Source: a candidate division TA06 bacterium SM23_40
GTDB taxonomy: Bacteria > LJUI01 > SM1-40
Length of the DNA stretch: 8,094 bases
Direction of reading: 5' to 3'
Assembly (NCBI GenBank): GCA_001303705.1
Contig: LJUI01000115.1
Span: forward strand, 1 to 8,094
This document shows positions 2,391-8,094 of the stretch, in pieces. Position numbers and translations under genes: made by a program. The notes beneath the pieces are model-generated. The model was not told the DNA's origin and did no database searches. It worked only from the letters and a program-made list of their open reading frames with translations. Position 1 is the first letter of the stretch; every line of letters begins with the position of its first letter.

Positions 2391-2519
2391 CGGGGTCAGT
2401 AGCAGAGGGATTGAATGCTTCGGCTCACACTGTGCGCGCGGGAGCGGTTCCCATAGCTCGGCCAGATCCTCGCCAGTGCAGTCGGGTCTCGCTGGGTCTC
2501 GGACCGGTCGGTGTGAACG

Positions 2520-3164
2520 ATGTGCGAACAGATCAGAGACGATCTGAGGGTCGCGTATGACGCTAACGCGGCCGCCCGGGACGGTGCCGCCATCTCGGAC
2601 TGGAAGGCGGAGGAGCGGGGGCGTTTTCTCGCTCAGCTCAAGAAGGAGAAGAAGACGAGGCTACTGGAGATCGGAGCGGGTCCGGGGCGGGATGGCGTCT
2701 TCTTCAGGGAGAACGGTCTATCGGTTGTGTGTACAGACCTGTCCCCGGCGATGGTGGATCTGTGCCGGAACAAGGGACTCGAAGCTCATGTGATGGACCT
2801 TCTCGATCTCGACTTTCCCGCGCAGAGCTTCGAGGGCGTCTTCGCATTGAACTGTTTGTTGCACGTACCGAAGAGCGAGATCCGGGCAGTCCTGGCCGCT
2901 ATCAGGGATCTGCTCGAGCCCTCGGGCATCTTCTATATGGGAGTGTACGGGGGGAAGGACTTCGAGGGGATATGGCAGTACGATCACCATGAACCCAAGC
3001 GGTTCTTCGCCTTATATACCGACCGAGGCATGCGTGCATTGGTGAGCGAGTTTTTCGAGTTGTTCTATTTCCGGAGGATAGGATTGGAGGGACCGGGGAC
3101 GGTTCATTTCCAGTCGATGATGCTGAGAAATCGCGGCCCTGTGGAAAGACCGTCTGATCACTGA
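2520..3164 (+). CDS. Class I SAM-dependent methyltransferase
   Basis: This 214-residue protein has a Rossmann-type methyltransferase core. Motif I is LLEIGAGPGRDG (48-59). The strand-2 acidic residue is D73 in VVCTDLSPAMV. M92-D93 suits the adenine-binding turn. Motif IV-like NCLLHV is at 111-116, followed by LLEPSGIFYMGVYGG as a post-core strand. A helical N-terminal part (AYDANAAARD) and a distinctive DFEGIW...HHEPKRFFALYTD segment are shared with a subgroup of uncharacterised small-molecule methyltransferases. The substrate cannot be told from sequence. An in-frame TGA lies six bases before ATG 2520, so this is the earliest ATG, though no good Shine-Dalgarno precedes it. The 129 nt separating it from the GyrI-like gene shows no clear promoter, so co-transcription is possible. 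Confidence 0.88.
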   Translation: MCEQIRDDLRVAYDANAAARDGAAISDWKAEERGRFLAQLKKEKKTRLLEIGAGPGRDGVFFRENGLSVVCTDLSPAMVDLCRNKGLEAHVMDLLDLDFPAQSFEGVFALNCLLHVPKSEIRAVLAAIRDLLEPSGIFYMGVYGGKDFEGIWQYDHHEPKRFFALYTDRGMRALVSEFFELFYFRRIGLEGPGTVHFQSMMLRNRGPVERPSDH

Positions 3165-3194
3165 AGGGGCGGATTCAGGCGAGGGGGCACGCCG

Positions 3195-3496: not shown

Positions 3497-3554
3497 CCGA
3501 CCTCATGGACGGTGTCGTCAGAATGTGGTGTCGCCGAGGGCAGGGTAGGCGTAC

Positions 3555-3568
3555 AGGAGAGTCGATTG
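3555..3568 (+). promoter_or_regulatory. Ribosome binding site that decides the gcvPB TTG start
   Basis: AGGAG at 3555-3559 lies six bases before TTG 3566-3568. This fits the family's usual N-terminus (LEP-IFDLS). The in-frame ATG at 3512 lacks a comparable site and would add 18 residues that do not look like the family. Confidence 0.7.
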
Positions 3569-5029
3569 AATATACTGGAGCCGACCATCTTCGATCTCTC
3601 ACAGGAGGGCAGGCAGGGCGCAGCGCTGCCGGATCTCGACGTGCCGGAGAAGCCGCTCGAGGAGCTCCTCCCGGAGGAGAGCCTGCGCCGGGATCTGCCG
3701 CACCTCCCGGAGGTGAGTGAGCCCGAGGTGGTCCGCCATTTCATTCACTTGTCGTCATTCAATCACCACATCGACAAGGGGTTCTATCCTCTCGGTTCGT
3801 GCACGATGAAGTACAACCCCAAGGTGAATGAGGTTTCGGCCCGGCTCCCTGGTTTCGCGCGGGTTCATCCGCTCGCGCCGGCAAAGACTGTGCAGGGCGC
3901 ATTGCGGCTGATGCATGAACTTGGCGATCTCCTCTGTCGCATCAGCGGCCTCGACGAGGTGACGCTCCAGCCGGCAGCTGGAGCGCAGGGAGAGCTGGCC
4001 GGCCTGATGATGATCCGCGCGTATCACGACAAGCGCGGGCACAGACGGTCCAAGGTGCTCATTCCCGATTCCGCTCACGGGACGAACCCTGCGAGCGTCA
4101 CGCTCGCGGGATACCGTTCGGTCCAGGTAGCATCGAACGACCGTGGGCTCGTCGATATCGATGATCTGCGCCGCGCGGCAGATGAGGAAGTGGCGGCGCT
4201 GATGCTGACGAATCCGAATACCTTAGGCCTATTCGAGTCCGACATCGAGGAGATCGAGCGGATCGTTCACGGGGTGGGGGCGCAGCTGTACATGGACGGC
4301 GCCAATCTCAACGCACTCCTCGGGATCGCGCGCCCGGGTGACATGGGGTTCGATGTCGTCCACTTCAACCTTCATAAAACATTCTCTACGCCTCACGGCG
4401 GCGGCGGCCCCGGGGCCGGGCCTGTTGGGGTGAAGGCACACATAGGACCGTTTCTCCCCGTCCCGGTGATCCTCCGGGACGGGGAGGAGTACCGCCTCGA
4501 CTATGATCGCCCCGATTCGATCGGAAAGATACAGAGCTTCTATGGCAACTTCGGCGTGATGGTACGGGCGTACACCTATATCAGAATGATGGGAGCTCGT
4601 GGGCTTCGCGCGGTGAGCGAGAATGCGATCATCAACGCCAATTATCTGAAGCGGAAGCTGGAGGGGACGTACGATCTCCCGTACCCGCAACACTGCCAAC
4701 ACGAGTTCGTACTCTCCGGAAGGCGCCAGAAGGAGCAGGGCGTGAAGACACTCGATATCGCCAAGCGTCTCCTCGATTTCGGCGTTCACGCGCCCACCAT
4801 CTATTTTCCGTTGATCGTCCCCGAGGCGCTCATGATCGAGCCCACGGAGACGGAGAGCAAGGAGTCGCTCGACGCGTTCATCGATGCGATGCTGACGATC
4901 GCCCGCGAAGTGTCAACAGATCCGGAGCGAGTTCGCACTGCTCCCCATACGACACCGGTGCGCCGCCTCGATGAAGCTGGGGCGGGGAGGAAGCTAGATG
5001 TTCGGCAGCGAGCCGATCGCGGGGTATGA
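3566..5029 (+). CDS. gcvPB: Glycine dehydrogenase (decarboxylating), subunit 2
   Basis: This 487-residue protein is the PLP-carrying half of the two-subunit P-protein. With GcvPA it decarboxylates glycine and loads the aminomethyl group on lipoyl H-protein (EC 1.4.4.2). From the TTG start the order is [14 protein letters not shown] (5-18), [13 protein letters not shown] (74-86), [13 protein letters not shown] (135-147), [11 protein letters not shown] (167-177), [11 protein letters not shown] (214-224), [10 protein letters not shown] (242-251), [18 protein letters not shown] (266-283) with K271 as the PLP lysine, HEFVLS, PTIYFPL and [12 protein letters not shown]. All family blocks are intact, so it should be active. 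The C-terminal tail beyond RRLDEAGAG is atypical, and its end overlaps the next gene by 32 bp. gcvPA, gcvT and gcvH are not adjacent upstream. The partner may be encoded elsewhere. Confidence 0.97.
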
Positions 5030-5351
5030 GGAAGTCTCGCCCGAGAGGAGAGACGAACTGCTGGACAAGCTTGCCAGGATGATCGTCGAGAGAGGATTGG
5101 TGACTCCCGCGATCTTCCTGCTCGAGTCGATGAAGCCACTCTCGTTCATCGGCAGCCAGGTGCTCGTCTTCCTGGAGCCGATGGTCAAGTCGGTGTTCAC
5201 GGTGAAGGAGTACGACGAATATACGAGATTGCTGGAAGATAGATCAAATGTGGAGCGGCTGCTCCAGCGGATCGAAGGTATGGAAGATGAAGCTCGCCGC
5301 GAGAGAGCGCGGCGCAAGAAGGAGCGCAAGGCAGAGAAGGAGAAAAAATGA
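4998..5351 (+). CDS. Conserved-looking small protein linked to the MutL-like ATPase
   Basis: This 117-residue protein has no assigned function. GGAGG (4986-4990) lies seven bases before ATG 4998, inside the gcvPB 3' end. Its TGA overlaps the next start in an ATGA, so translation of the two is likely coupled. Residues 1-60 hold a predicted helical, fairly hydrophobic core ([14 protein letters not shown], then [27 protein letters not shown]). A segment [23 protein letters not shown] (72-94) looks like an amphipathic helix. The last 25 residues are almost entirely K, R and E ([13 protein letters not shown]-type) and suit a charged helix or a nucleic-acid or membrane-surface contact. No signal peptide or zinc motif is seen. 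The hydrophobic stretch is too interrupted for a confident membrane helix. It looks like a dedicated partner of the ATPase encoded next. Confidence 0.85.
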
Positions 5352-7168
5352 CGATGAGCGATGCCAGCGAGATCACCTCCATCCTGGCAACCGACTGCGG
5401 CAGCACCACCACGAAGGCGATCCTGATCGAGAAGCGCGGTGATGAGTTCCGGCTCGTGGTGCGCGGCGAGGCGCCGACGACGGTGGAGGCCCCCTTTGAG
5501 GACGTGACGCGGGGCGCGCTCAATGCTATCCGTGAGGTCGAGGAGCTGGCCGGCCGCAAGTTCCTCGACGGCGAGCAGATCATACGGCCGCGACGGAGTG
5601 AGACCGAGGGGACTGATATCTACATCTCAACGTCGAGCGCCGGAGGCGGTCTCCAGATGATGGTCGCCGGTGTCGTCAAGACGATGACCGCCGAGAGCGC
5701 GGCACGCGCAGCCCTAGGTGCGGGGGCGATCGTGATGGATACGCTCGCCACCAACGACGGGCGATTGCCCCACGAGCGGGTGGCGAGGATACGAGCCCTG
5801 CGGCCAGACATGATCCTGCTCTCAGGGGGCGTTGATGGCGGCACTATCTCCCACGTTGTGGAGCTCGCCGAACTGATCGCCGCCGCCGATCCCAAGCCGC
5901 GGTTCGGGACGGGCTACCGGCTTCCGGTCATCTTCGCAGGGAACAAGGATGCGAGGGAGCCTGTGAAGGAGACCCTGGAGTCGAAGTCCGCTCTCGACAT
6001 CGTCGAGAACCTGCGTCCCGTCCTGGAGCGCGAGAATCTCGGTCCGGCGCGGGACAAGATACACGACCTGTTCATGGAACATGTGATGGCTCACGCCCCC
6101 GGGTACAAGAAGCTGATGAGGTGGACAGAGGTGCCGATCATGCCCACTCCGGGAGCCGTGGGACTATTGATTGACACGATGGGGCGCAAGGAGAAGATCG
6201 AGGCGATGGGCGTGGATATCGGAGGCGCGACGACCGACGTCTTCTCGCGTTTCAAGGATGTCTTCAATCGCACGGTGAGCGCCAATCTGGGGATGAGCTA
6301 CTCGATCTCGAATGTCCTCAGCGAGGCAGGGCTCCCCAATATCGTCCGTTGGATTCCGTTCAAGGTTCACGAGATCGATCTGCGCAACACTATCCGCAAC
6401 AAGATGATCCGGCCAACGACGATTCCCCATACGCTCAAAGAGCTCCAGATCGAGCAGGCCATCGCCCGCGAAGCACTCCGTCTCGCATTCGAGCAGCACA
6501 AGTCGATGGCCGTGGGGCTCAAGGGGATCCAGCAGGAGAGGACGATCTCCGATGCATTCGACCAGACGGCGACCGGGGCGACACTCGTCGATATGATGTC
6601 GCTCAGTATCATCGTCGGATCGGGCGGCGCGCTCTCCCACGCGCCCAGGCGCTCTCAGGCAGCGCTCATGCTGATCGATGCGTTCCTCCCCGAGGGCGTG
6701 ACGAGGCTTGCGGTCGACTCGATCTTCATGATGCCGCAGCTCGGCGTGCTCTCCACGGTCCACGAGAAGGCTGCCACCGATGTCTTCGATCGAGACTGTC
6801 TCATCAAACTCGGCACCTGCATCGCACCTGTGGGAACGGGGAAGGCGGGGGCGAGGGCGATCCGCGTCTCGGCGGCCCTGCCGGATGGGCGGAACGAGGA
6901 GCGGGAGGTAGGATTCGGTGAGATGGCCGCTATTCCCCTTGGCGTGGGTGAGAACGCGGAGGTCGAGATCAACCCCGAACGGGGGTTCGATATGGGTGCA
7001 GGGAGGGGGAAGGAGCTGCGTCGGACGGTTGAAGGCGGCGTCGTCGGGATCATTATCGACGCCCGTGGCCGTCCGTTCCAGCTCCCCGAGGATGACGATG
7101 AGCGAATCAGGAAGCTGATGGAGTGGGAGACCGTGCTCGACGTCTATCCTGAACGGAGCAGCAGTTGA
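5348..7168 (+). CDS. MutL/GlmL-family ASKHA ATPase (glutamate mutase L-like)
   Basis: This 606-residue protein belongs to the glutamate-mutase-associated MutL/GlmL family, not the mismatch-repair MutL. It has actin/Hsp70-fold ATPase motifs twice. An N-terminal phosphate loop TDCGSTTTKA (15-24) is followed by LLSGGVDGG (157-165). A second phosphate loop, GVDIGGATTDVFS (288-300), is followed by IIVGSGGALSH (421-431). The C-terminus carries a typical IPLGVGENAEVEI...GFDMGAGRGK...VVGIIIDARGRP block. In clostridial glutamate mutase operons this family is thought to help reactivate or assemble the B12 enzyme. Here no mutase subunit is nearby, so the client is unknown. AAGGAG (5337-5342) lies five bases before ATG 5348, and ATG 5354 is an alternative. 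The next gene begins 39 bp downstream. Confidence 0.9.
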   Translation: MTMSDASEITSILATDCGSTTTKAILIEKRGDEFRLVVRGEAPTTVEAPFEDVTRGALNAIREVEELAGRKFLDGEQIIRPRRSETEGTDIYISTSSAGGGLQMMVAGVVKTMTAESAARAALGAGAIVMDTLATNDGRLPHERVARIRALRPDMILLSGGVDGGTISHVVELAELIAAADPKPRFGTGYRLPVIFAGNKDAREPVKETLESKSALDIVENLRPVLERENLGPARDKIHDLFMEHVMAHAPGYKKLMRWTEVPIMPTPGAVGLLIDTMGRKEKIEAMGVDIGGATTDVFSRFKDVFNRTVSANLGMSYSISNVLSEAGLPNIVRWIPFKVHEIDLRNTIRNKMIRPTTIPHTLKELQIEQAIAREALRLAFEQHKSMAVGLKGIQQERTISDAFDQTATGATLVDMMSLSIIVGSGGALSHAPRRSQAALMLIDAFLPEGVTRLAVDSIFMMPQLGVLSTVHEKAATDVFDRDCLIKLGTCIAPVGTGKAGARAIRVSAALPDGRNEEREVGFGEMAAIPLGVGENAEVEINPERGFDMGAGRGKELRRTVEGGVVGIIIDARGRPFQLPEDDDERIRKLMEWETVLDVYPERSSS

Positions 7169-7207
7169 GGGCTCGGCGCATTTCTACGGTTTCAAGGGAG
7201 ATTCCGC

Positions 7208-8094
7208 ATGGCACATGCATATACGCCTGGACTGACCGTGACGGAGAGGACAGTCGTGCGCAAGGAGCGCCGTCTTCCGCTTGCCGGCGATGTCATCGTG
7301 GCTCGCGAGGATAAGGTGAAGGCGGAGACGATCGTCGCCCGTACCAACCTTCCGGGAAACGTACAGACGATCAATGTCGCGGGCAGGCTCTCTCTCCCGC
7401 CCGAGGATATCCACGAGAGCATGGCGGTCGGAGTCGGCGATGCAGTGAAGAAGGGTGACATCGTCGCCCATACCAAGGGATTCTTCGGGTTGTTGAAGTC
7501 CACCTGCCGCGCTCCTGCCGAGGGCACGATCGAGAGCATCTCCGACATCACCGGTCAGGTCATCTTGCGGGAGCCTCCCCTGCCTGTCGAGGTCGCAGCA
7601 TACATCGATGGCGTGGTGACCGAGGTCATGGAACATGAGGGCGCGGTGATTGAGGCGCTCGGGACGTTCGTTCAGGGCATCTTCGGCATCGGTGGGGAGC
7701 GGTACGGAACGATCAAGAAGGTATGCGATGATCCCTCGGACATCCTTACGGATAAGGAGATCGATGAGGAGTGTCGCGGGGCGGTCCTCATCGGCGGTGC
7801 GTTGGCCACGAGTGAGGCGATCAAGCGGGCGATCGCGGTCGGGGCGCGCGGCGTGGTGGTCGGGGGCATGGACGACCGCGATCTCAGGGGGTTCCTCGGG
7901 TATGATATAGGTGTGGCGATCACCGGCGCCGAGGACATCGACGTGACGGTCATCGTGACGGAAGGCTTCGGCCGGATGAGCATGGCAGACAAGACATTCC
8001 GGCTTCTCACATCTCATGAGGGGCACAAGGCGTCGATGAACGGTGCGACGCAGATTCGCGCAGGGGTCATCCGCCCCGAGGTTATCGTTCCGCT
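7208..8094 (+). CDS. Barrel-sandwich-hybrid-like protein of unknown function (3' end outside window)
   Basis: 295 residues are visible with no stop. AAGGGAG (7194-7200) lies seven bases before ATG 7208. Residues 20-120 resemble a biotinyl/lipoyl-type barrel-sandwich hybrid: AGDVIV (26-31), VGVGDAVKKGDIVAHTKG (74-91), CRAPAEGTIESIS (100-112) and VILREPP. The lysine hairpin of true lipoyl or biotin carriers is not evident, so it is probably a structural or binding barrel. A glycine-rich segment AYIDGVVTEV...FVQGIFGIGGERYG (131-167) follows. A Rossmann-like alternating part then has GAVLIGGALATSEAIKRAI (191-209), ARGVVVGGMDD (213-223), GYDIGVAITG (231-240), VTVIVTEGFG (246-255) and SMNGATQIRAGVIRPEV. 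I know of no characterised homologue. The tight spacing after the ATPase suggests a shared process. Confidence 0.85.
   Translation, partial: MAHAYTPGLTVTERTVVRKERRLPLAGDVIVAREDKVKAETIVARTNLPGNVQTINVAGRLSLPPEDIHESMAVGVGDAVKKGDIVAHTKGFFGLLKSTCRAPAEGTIESISDITGQVILREPPLPVEVAAYIDGVVTEVMEHEGAVIEALGTFVQGIFGIGGERYGTIKKVCDDPSDILTDKEIDEECRGAVLIGGALATSEAIKRAIAVGARGVVVGGMDDRDLRGFLGYDIGVAITGAEDIDVTVIVTEGFGRMSMADKTFRLLTSHEGHKASMNGATQIRAGVIRPEVIVP

Follow-up and report, generated by a model that had tools for sequence, protein, structure and literature searches.

Proteins of the MutL/GlmL type have been described as chaperones that reactivate glutamate mutase (PMC4682846), and in glycerol dehydratase reactivase the alpha subunit comprises ATPase, insert, linker and swiveling domains (PMC7674605). 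Here we analyzed a window of 8,094 bp, which is an entire contig (C72) of a 2.88-Mb bacterial genome that is 90% complete, and which encodes a long MutL-type ATPase (F0) together with two partner proteins (F1 and F2). The window represents the cytosolic half of a larger, membrane-associated system of about seven to eight genes, and we regard the existence of this system as nearly certain.

The three genes follow one another on the forward strand. F2 (positions 4998..5351) is an open frame whose small product (117 aa) ends in a charged tail rich in K, R and E, and is represented by a family alignment (A3); it overlaps the upstream gcvPB gene by 32 bp. F0 (5348..7168), an ASKHA ATPase of 606 aa, starts inside an ATGA at the stop codon of F2, and F1 (7208..8094), a barrel/swivel/KOW protein whose family occurs in 91 of 366 genomes, begins after a gap of 39 bp. 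The contig end cuts F1 at 295 aa, compared with about 375 aa in its relatives, and the AlphaFold2 model was built on a full-length relative. These ORF coordinates confirm the three-gene unit, with both overlaps and the 39-bp gap, that had been proposed from the sequence alone.

The upstream neighbor of F2, gcvPB, encodes glycine dehydrogenase subunit 2 (3512..5029, forward strand; NF003346, 761 bits against a cut-off of 441) and has an uncertain start codon. Neither gcvT, gcvH nor gcvPA was found within the window. Further upstream, judged by eye, lie a conserved-looking 366-aa ORF on the reverse strand that is possibly an archaeal-type fructose-bisphosphatase (428-1528), a GyrI-like ORF (1773-2390) and a methyltransferase-like ORF (2520-3164).

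Domain analysis placed F0 within the MutL family (PF13941; E = 2e-123, 412.7 bits against a Pfam cut-off of 27), and its best 80 relatives, drawn from many uncultured phyla, share 66-77% identity with it. The forward-strand gene encodes a phosphate-1-type ATPase motif, DCGSTTTK (5393..5416), a phosphate-2-type motif, DIGGATTD (6215..6238), and an adenosine-type motif, GSGG (6617..6628), each almost invariant among 79 relatives; F0 thus carries the two phosphate motifs and the adenosine motif that define ASKHA ATPases. We additionally observed weak Pfam relations of F0 to the hydantoinase A and BadF/BcrA (BcrAD) families, while direct sequence matching to solved structures returned nothing of note.

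Despite this family membership, F0 is not GlmL. Its PF13941 match stops at residue 484 of 606, leaving a C-terminal extension of about 120 aa (residues 485-606; 6800..7165, forward strand), whereas the GlmL-type proteins in our sample measure 441-510 aa. F0 scored below the curated cut-offs of the GlmL equivalog NF040745 (220.5 bits against 475), the Or-4 equivalog NF040744 (210.7 bits against 600) and glmL_fam. In a tree of 48 sequences, nine short relatives formed their own clade on a long branch (support 100/99), and the window F0 was placed beside a Latescibacterota protein (100/98). Moreover, the glutamate mutase E subunit (PF06368 above cut-off) was found in only 1 of 50 host genomes and is absent from the genome that carries the window. 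Reading F0 as a glutamate-mutase helper is probably misleading in these genomes.

Methylmalonyl-CoA mutase likewise offers no explanation of F0, as it occurs in 35 of the 50 host genomes and is absent from the other 15. The sequence-only reading had noted that no B12 mutase was present for the ATPase to serve, and had seen no tie to glutamate mutase. The latter point agrees with the survey of host genomes; the former is correct within the window and fails at the level of the genome, which contains two methylmalonyl-CoA mutase genes.

The N-terminal portion of F1 (approximately residues 11-150; 7238..7657, forward strand, boundary approximate) is a barrel-sandwich hybrid region that consists mostly of strands in the model and matches RnfC_N. 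The resemblance to a barrel, as originally suggested, is clear for the family, in which 18 of 41 members match RnfC_N with a best E-value of 6e-11, and is weak for the window protein itself (E = 0.0017). Against the curated RnfC model, the window F1, cut by the contig end, reached 16.6 bits compared with a cut-off of 245.95, and the full-length relative gave no match. We considered whether F1 might act as a carrier of lipoyl or biotinyl groups; this appears unlikely, because, on reading, no lysine is conserved at the expected position.

The following region of F1 (approximately residues 151-295; 7658..8092, forward strand) is a swivelling alpha/beta domain, and a C-terminal KOW domain completes the model of the full-length relative, which has a mean pLDDT of 87.5. 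Structure searches with the model of the F1 relative matched the swivelling domain to RraA (1j3l; Z 9.5, rmsd 3.9, 132 aligned residues) and to rifampin phosphotransferase (5fbu; Z 9.3, rmsd 2.9, 111 aligned), and RraA (3c8o) was also recovered by profile comparison with F1 (E = 0.0028). RraA and the phosphotransferase were the best matches, and the swivelling domain of reactivases was absent among the matches listed.

Fusions of MutL with F1, about 860-1015 aa long, occur as extra copies in eight genomes and support a physical partnership between F0 and F1. Three Bacillota loci (L056, L076 and L083) contain a second MutL-F1 pair in which F1 is longer (457-474 aa) and includes an extra barrel-like stretch. 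At another locus (L114), an apparent GGGP-synthase-like protein (2459-3181) and a thioesterase-like protein were read directly upstream of a fused MutL-F1 at 3588; gene lengths suggest the same order at L116.

F2 had no Pfam or NCBIfam match above cut-off, and neither database assigns a function to the F1 or F2 family. The description of this unit as an ATPase with two partners of unassigned function was thus borne out, as the motifs of F0 are intact and F1 and F2 carry no assigned, unrelated function. A defense system was considered upon a weak PADLOC match of F2 to Cas11a (E = 0.0012), which we took as chance.

To describe the distribution of these families, we surveyed 366 bacterial genomes. 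DUF6754 was carried by 95 of them, long MutL by 92, and F1 and F2 by 91 each, where the count of long MutL omits nine genomes whose MutL proteins are all short and GlmL-like, as well as two that carry fragments. DUF6754 and F1 co-occurred in 91 genomes, with four carrying DUF6754 only and none F1 only (phi 0.97); F1 and long MutL were found together in 90 (phi 0.98), and F2 and F1 in 87 (phi 0.94). In this survey phylogeny was corrected only through a subset of 59 genomes, each from a different family, in which DUF6754 and F1 occurred together in 12 genomes and alone in two and none, respectively (p = 8e-11).

Gene order is equally consistent. F2 precedes MutL in 61 cases to none, MutL precedes F1 in 66 to none, and F1 precedes DUF6754 in 36 to two. 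MutL and F1 are neighbors in 65 of 88 genomes, as are F2 and MutL in 61 of 86, so that the three families are indeed genomic neighbors; this invariant order, together with phi values of 0.94-0.98, upholds the claim of one conserved unit. Of 71 genomes, just 37 have a listed DUF6754 gene no more than 5 kb away from F1.

There are exceptions. DUF6754 occurs without F1 in G058, G077, G217 and G255; G007 has F1, F2 and DUF6754 without MutL; and G087 and G274 have MutL and F2 without F1 or DUF6754. Genome G058, which is a single contig, carries F2 (L124:8529-8873) and DUF6754 without MutL or F1, and has an unrelated repeat protein after F2. The genome from which the window derives possesses all four components (F2, MutL, F1 and DUF6754).

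Across 92 loci, the arrangement F2-F0-F1 is in many cases followed by the DUF6754 gene, F5, and then by genes for three further membrane proteins (F6, F7 and F8); F4, another small membrane protein, which shows a weak PH-like match, often precedes F2. The membrane partner F5 is a clear member of DUF6754 (PF20539). Its model predicts an N-terminal signal or anchor helix, an external FnIII domain (Z 11), a transmembrane segment, a cytosolic alpha/beta domain with a positive flank, and a further transmembrane segment, with the topology of F5-F8 inferred from hydropathy and charge. FnIII matches filled the list of the structure search with this model. F7 is predicted to have two transmembrane helices flanking a large domain, and F6 and F8 several transmembrane helices. 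For F6-F8 there was no match of note in Pfam, NCBIfam or PADLOC, and no solved relative was found for F7 or F8.

The genome of the window has one MutL gene and six DUF6754 genes, the latter distributed over three other contigs (C183, C119 and C133, corresponding to loci L111, L112 and L113). Each of the three contigs has F7 and F8 next to DUF6754, and two of them also have F6, which was not seen on C133. Two of these contigs end within a DUF6754 gene, and one may continue the window. Secreted repeat proteins with FlgD_ig/T9SS-like C-termini, identified by reading, adjoin the DUF6754 modules at L111:12328-13797 and L112:1111-2637; comparable proteins occur close to MutL at other loci. Because such proteins are probably abundant in these lineages, a link between them and the system was set aside.

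The sequence-only reading proposed an ATP-driven chaperone or reactivation system whose client would be a component of glycine cleavage or another cofactor enzyme. The linkage to gcvPB is indeed non-random: among 77 genomes with the system, 16 have the gene no more than 4 kb upstream of F2, always on the same strand, against approximately 0.2 expected by chance, and several lineages keep the whole order gcvT-gcvH-gcvPA-gcvPB-F4-F2-MutL-F1. Together with the chaperone role described for MutL/GlmL on glutamate mutase, this pattern would favor such a client. However, gcvPB is not adjacent in the remaining 61 genomes, so the genomic link to gcv genes is not constant, and in other lineages the unit stands beside cdsA, rpmF-plsX-fabH or a bifunctional nuclease. 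The constant partner is instead the DUF6754 membrane module, which lies outside the window; of 14 control genomes, 10 encode GcvP, and these lack DUF6754. Combined with the rarity of glutamate mutase and the patchy presence of methylmalonyl-CoA mutase among the hosts, these observations make a reactivase for glycine cleavage or another cofactor enzyme very unlikely. gcvPB is an occasional companion, not a constant member of the system, and serving it is probably not what the system is for. The proposed client is thereby set aside, while an ATP-driven chaperone or reactivation mode remains plausible by analogy.

The same neighborhoods bear on another interpretation, in which MutL and F1 would form an enzyme for ATP-dependent activation of a small molecule, akin to hydantoinases or acyl kinases, whose product is moved or used by the membrane module. 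The weak relation of F0 to hydantoinase A and BadF/BcrA is consistent with this, as are the occurrence of swivelling domains in phosphotransferases and pyruvate kinase, seen among the structure matches, and the proximity of some units to lipid genes (cdsA, plsX-fabH, and the apparent GGGP synthase next to the fused MutL-F1 gene at L114). Operon neighbors nevertheless proved heterogeneous across loci, which led us to drop a pathway shared among them, and no active-site residues of a known type were recognized in F1. We consider this enzymatic role unlikely.

Still less likely, in our assessment, is a cytoskeletal or energizing motor, in which F0 would provide an actin-like scaffold or an engine that powers the membrane module in transport or secretion. 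Actin-like proteins belong to the ASKHA ATPases, and the predicted extracytoplasmic domains of DUF6754 and F7, along with the several transmembrane segments of F6 and F8, would suit such a machine. Pfam, however, groups F0 with MutL and returned no match to FtsA, ParM or MreB, and no transporter or secretion family was recognized among F5-F8.

The explanation we tentatively favor, at slightly less than an even chance, is that F0 and F1 constitute a reactivase-like ATPase machinery that remodels, assembles or re-activates its own membrane module, a reading based on analogy. F0, judging from its motifs, would bind and hydrolyze ATP, and the resulting conformational change may be passed on by F1 through its swivelling domain, which is similar to mobile parts of other enzymes. 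F2 could help dock the F0/F1 pair at the membrane, where the putative target would be the cytosolic alpha/beta domain of DUF6754. One ATPase might serve several paralogous membrane modules; the presence of at least two DUF6754 genes in 45 of 95 genomes fits such a shared engine, although copy number may reflect duplicated modules rather than several clients of one ATPase. In addition, the match of the swivelling domain is to RraA and phosphotransferase domains and is not specific to reactivases. Genomes G058 and G007, which have DUF6754 and F2 but lack MutL, also count against this reading, as does the limited proximity of F1 to DUF6754 genes.

Collectively, roughly one in four genomes of a broad bacterial sample (91-95 of 366) has this gene set, and this wide carriage, coupled with the high identity of F0 across phyla among its best 80 relatives, suggests a central role. 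Beyond MutL and DUF6754, the parts of the system have no family name, and the set provides a defined list of partners for testing. Our literature search, which covered few subscription journals, found no publication that deals with DUF6754 or this gene set, and the GlmL-family literature contained nothing on this system. It is possible, at somewhat less than an even chance, that the system represents a new class of membrane machine with no known model, in which an ATPase of the Hsp70/actin superfamily acts with a swivelling adaptor on one or more four-protein modules bearing extracytoplasmic domains, in many mostly uncultured phyla.

Comparison with known systems delineates what is shared and what is distinct. 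GlmL/MutL and the Or-4 protein of ornithine degradation have the PF13941 family and the ATPase core in common with F0, which differs from both in being about 120 aa longer, in falling below both curated cut-offs and in having F1, F2 and DUF6754 as partners. The glycerol and diol dehydratase reactivases combine a chaperone-like ATPase and a swivelling domain in one chain (PMC7674605), and an ATPase and a swivelling fold, the latter with RraA and a phosphotransferase as best matches, also occur here; the swivelling domain, by contrast, resides in the separate protein F1 together with barrel-sandwich and KOW domains and is joined to the ATPase in a single chain solely in paralogues, and the B12 dehydratase client of the reactivases is replaced by a constant membrane-module partner. 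The N terminus of F1 shares its barrel-sandwich domain with the N-terminal regions of RnfC and NqrA, with swivelling and KOW domains in place of the rest of RnfC. The middle domain of F1 adopts the RraA-like swivelling fold, which is one of three domains and, as a shared fold, shows no function. F5, finally, joins the system to DUF6754, a family of unknown function.
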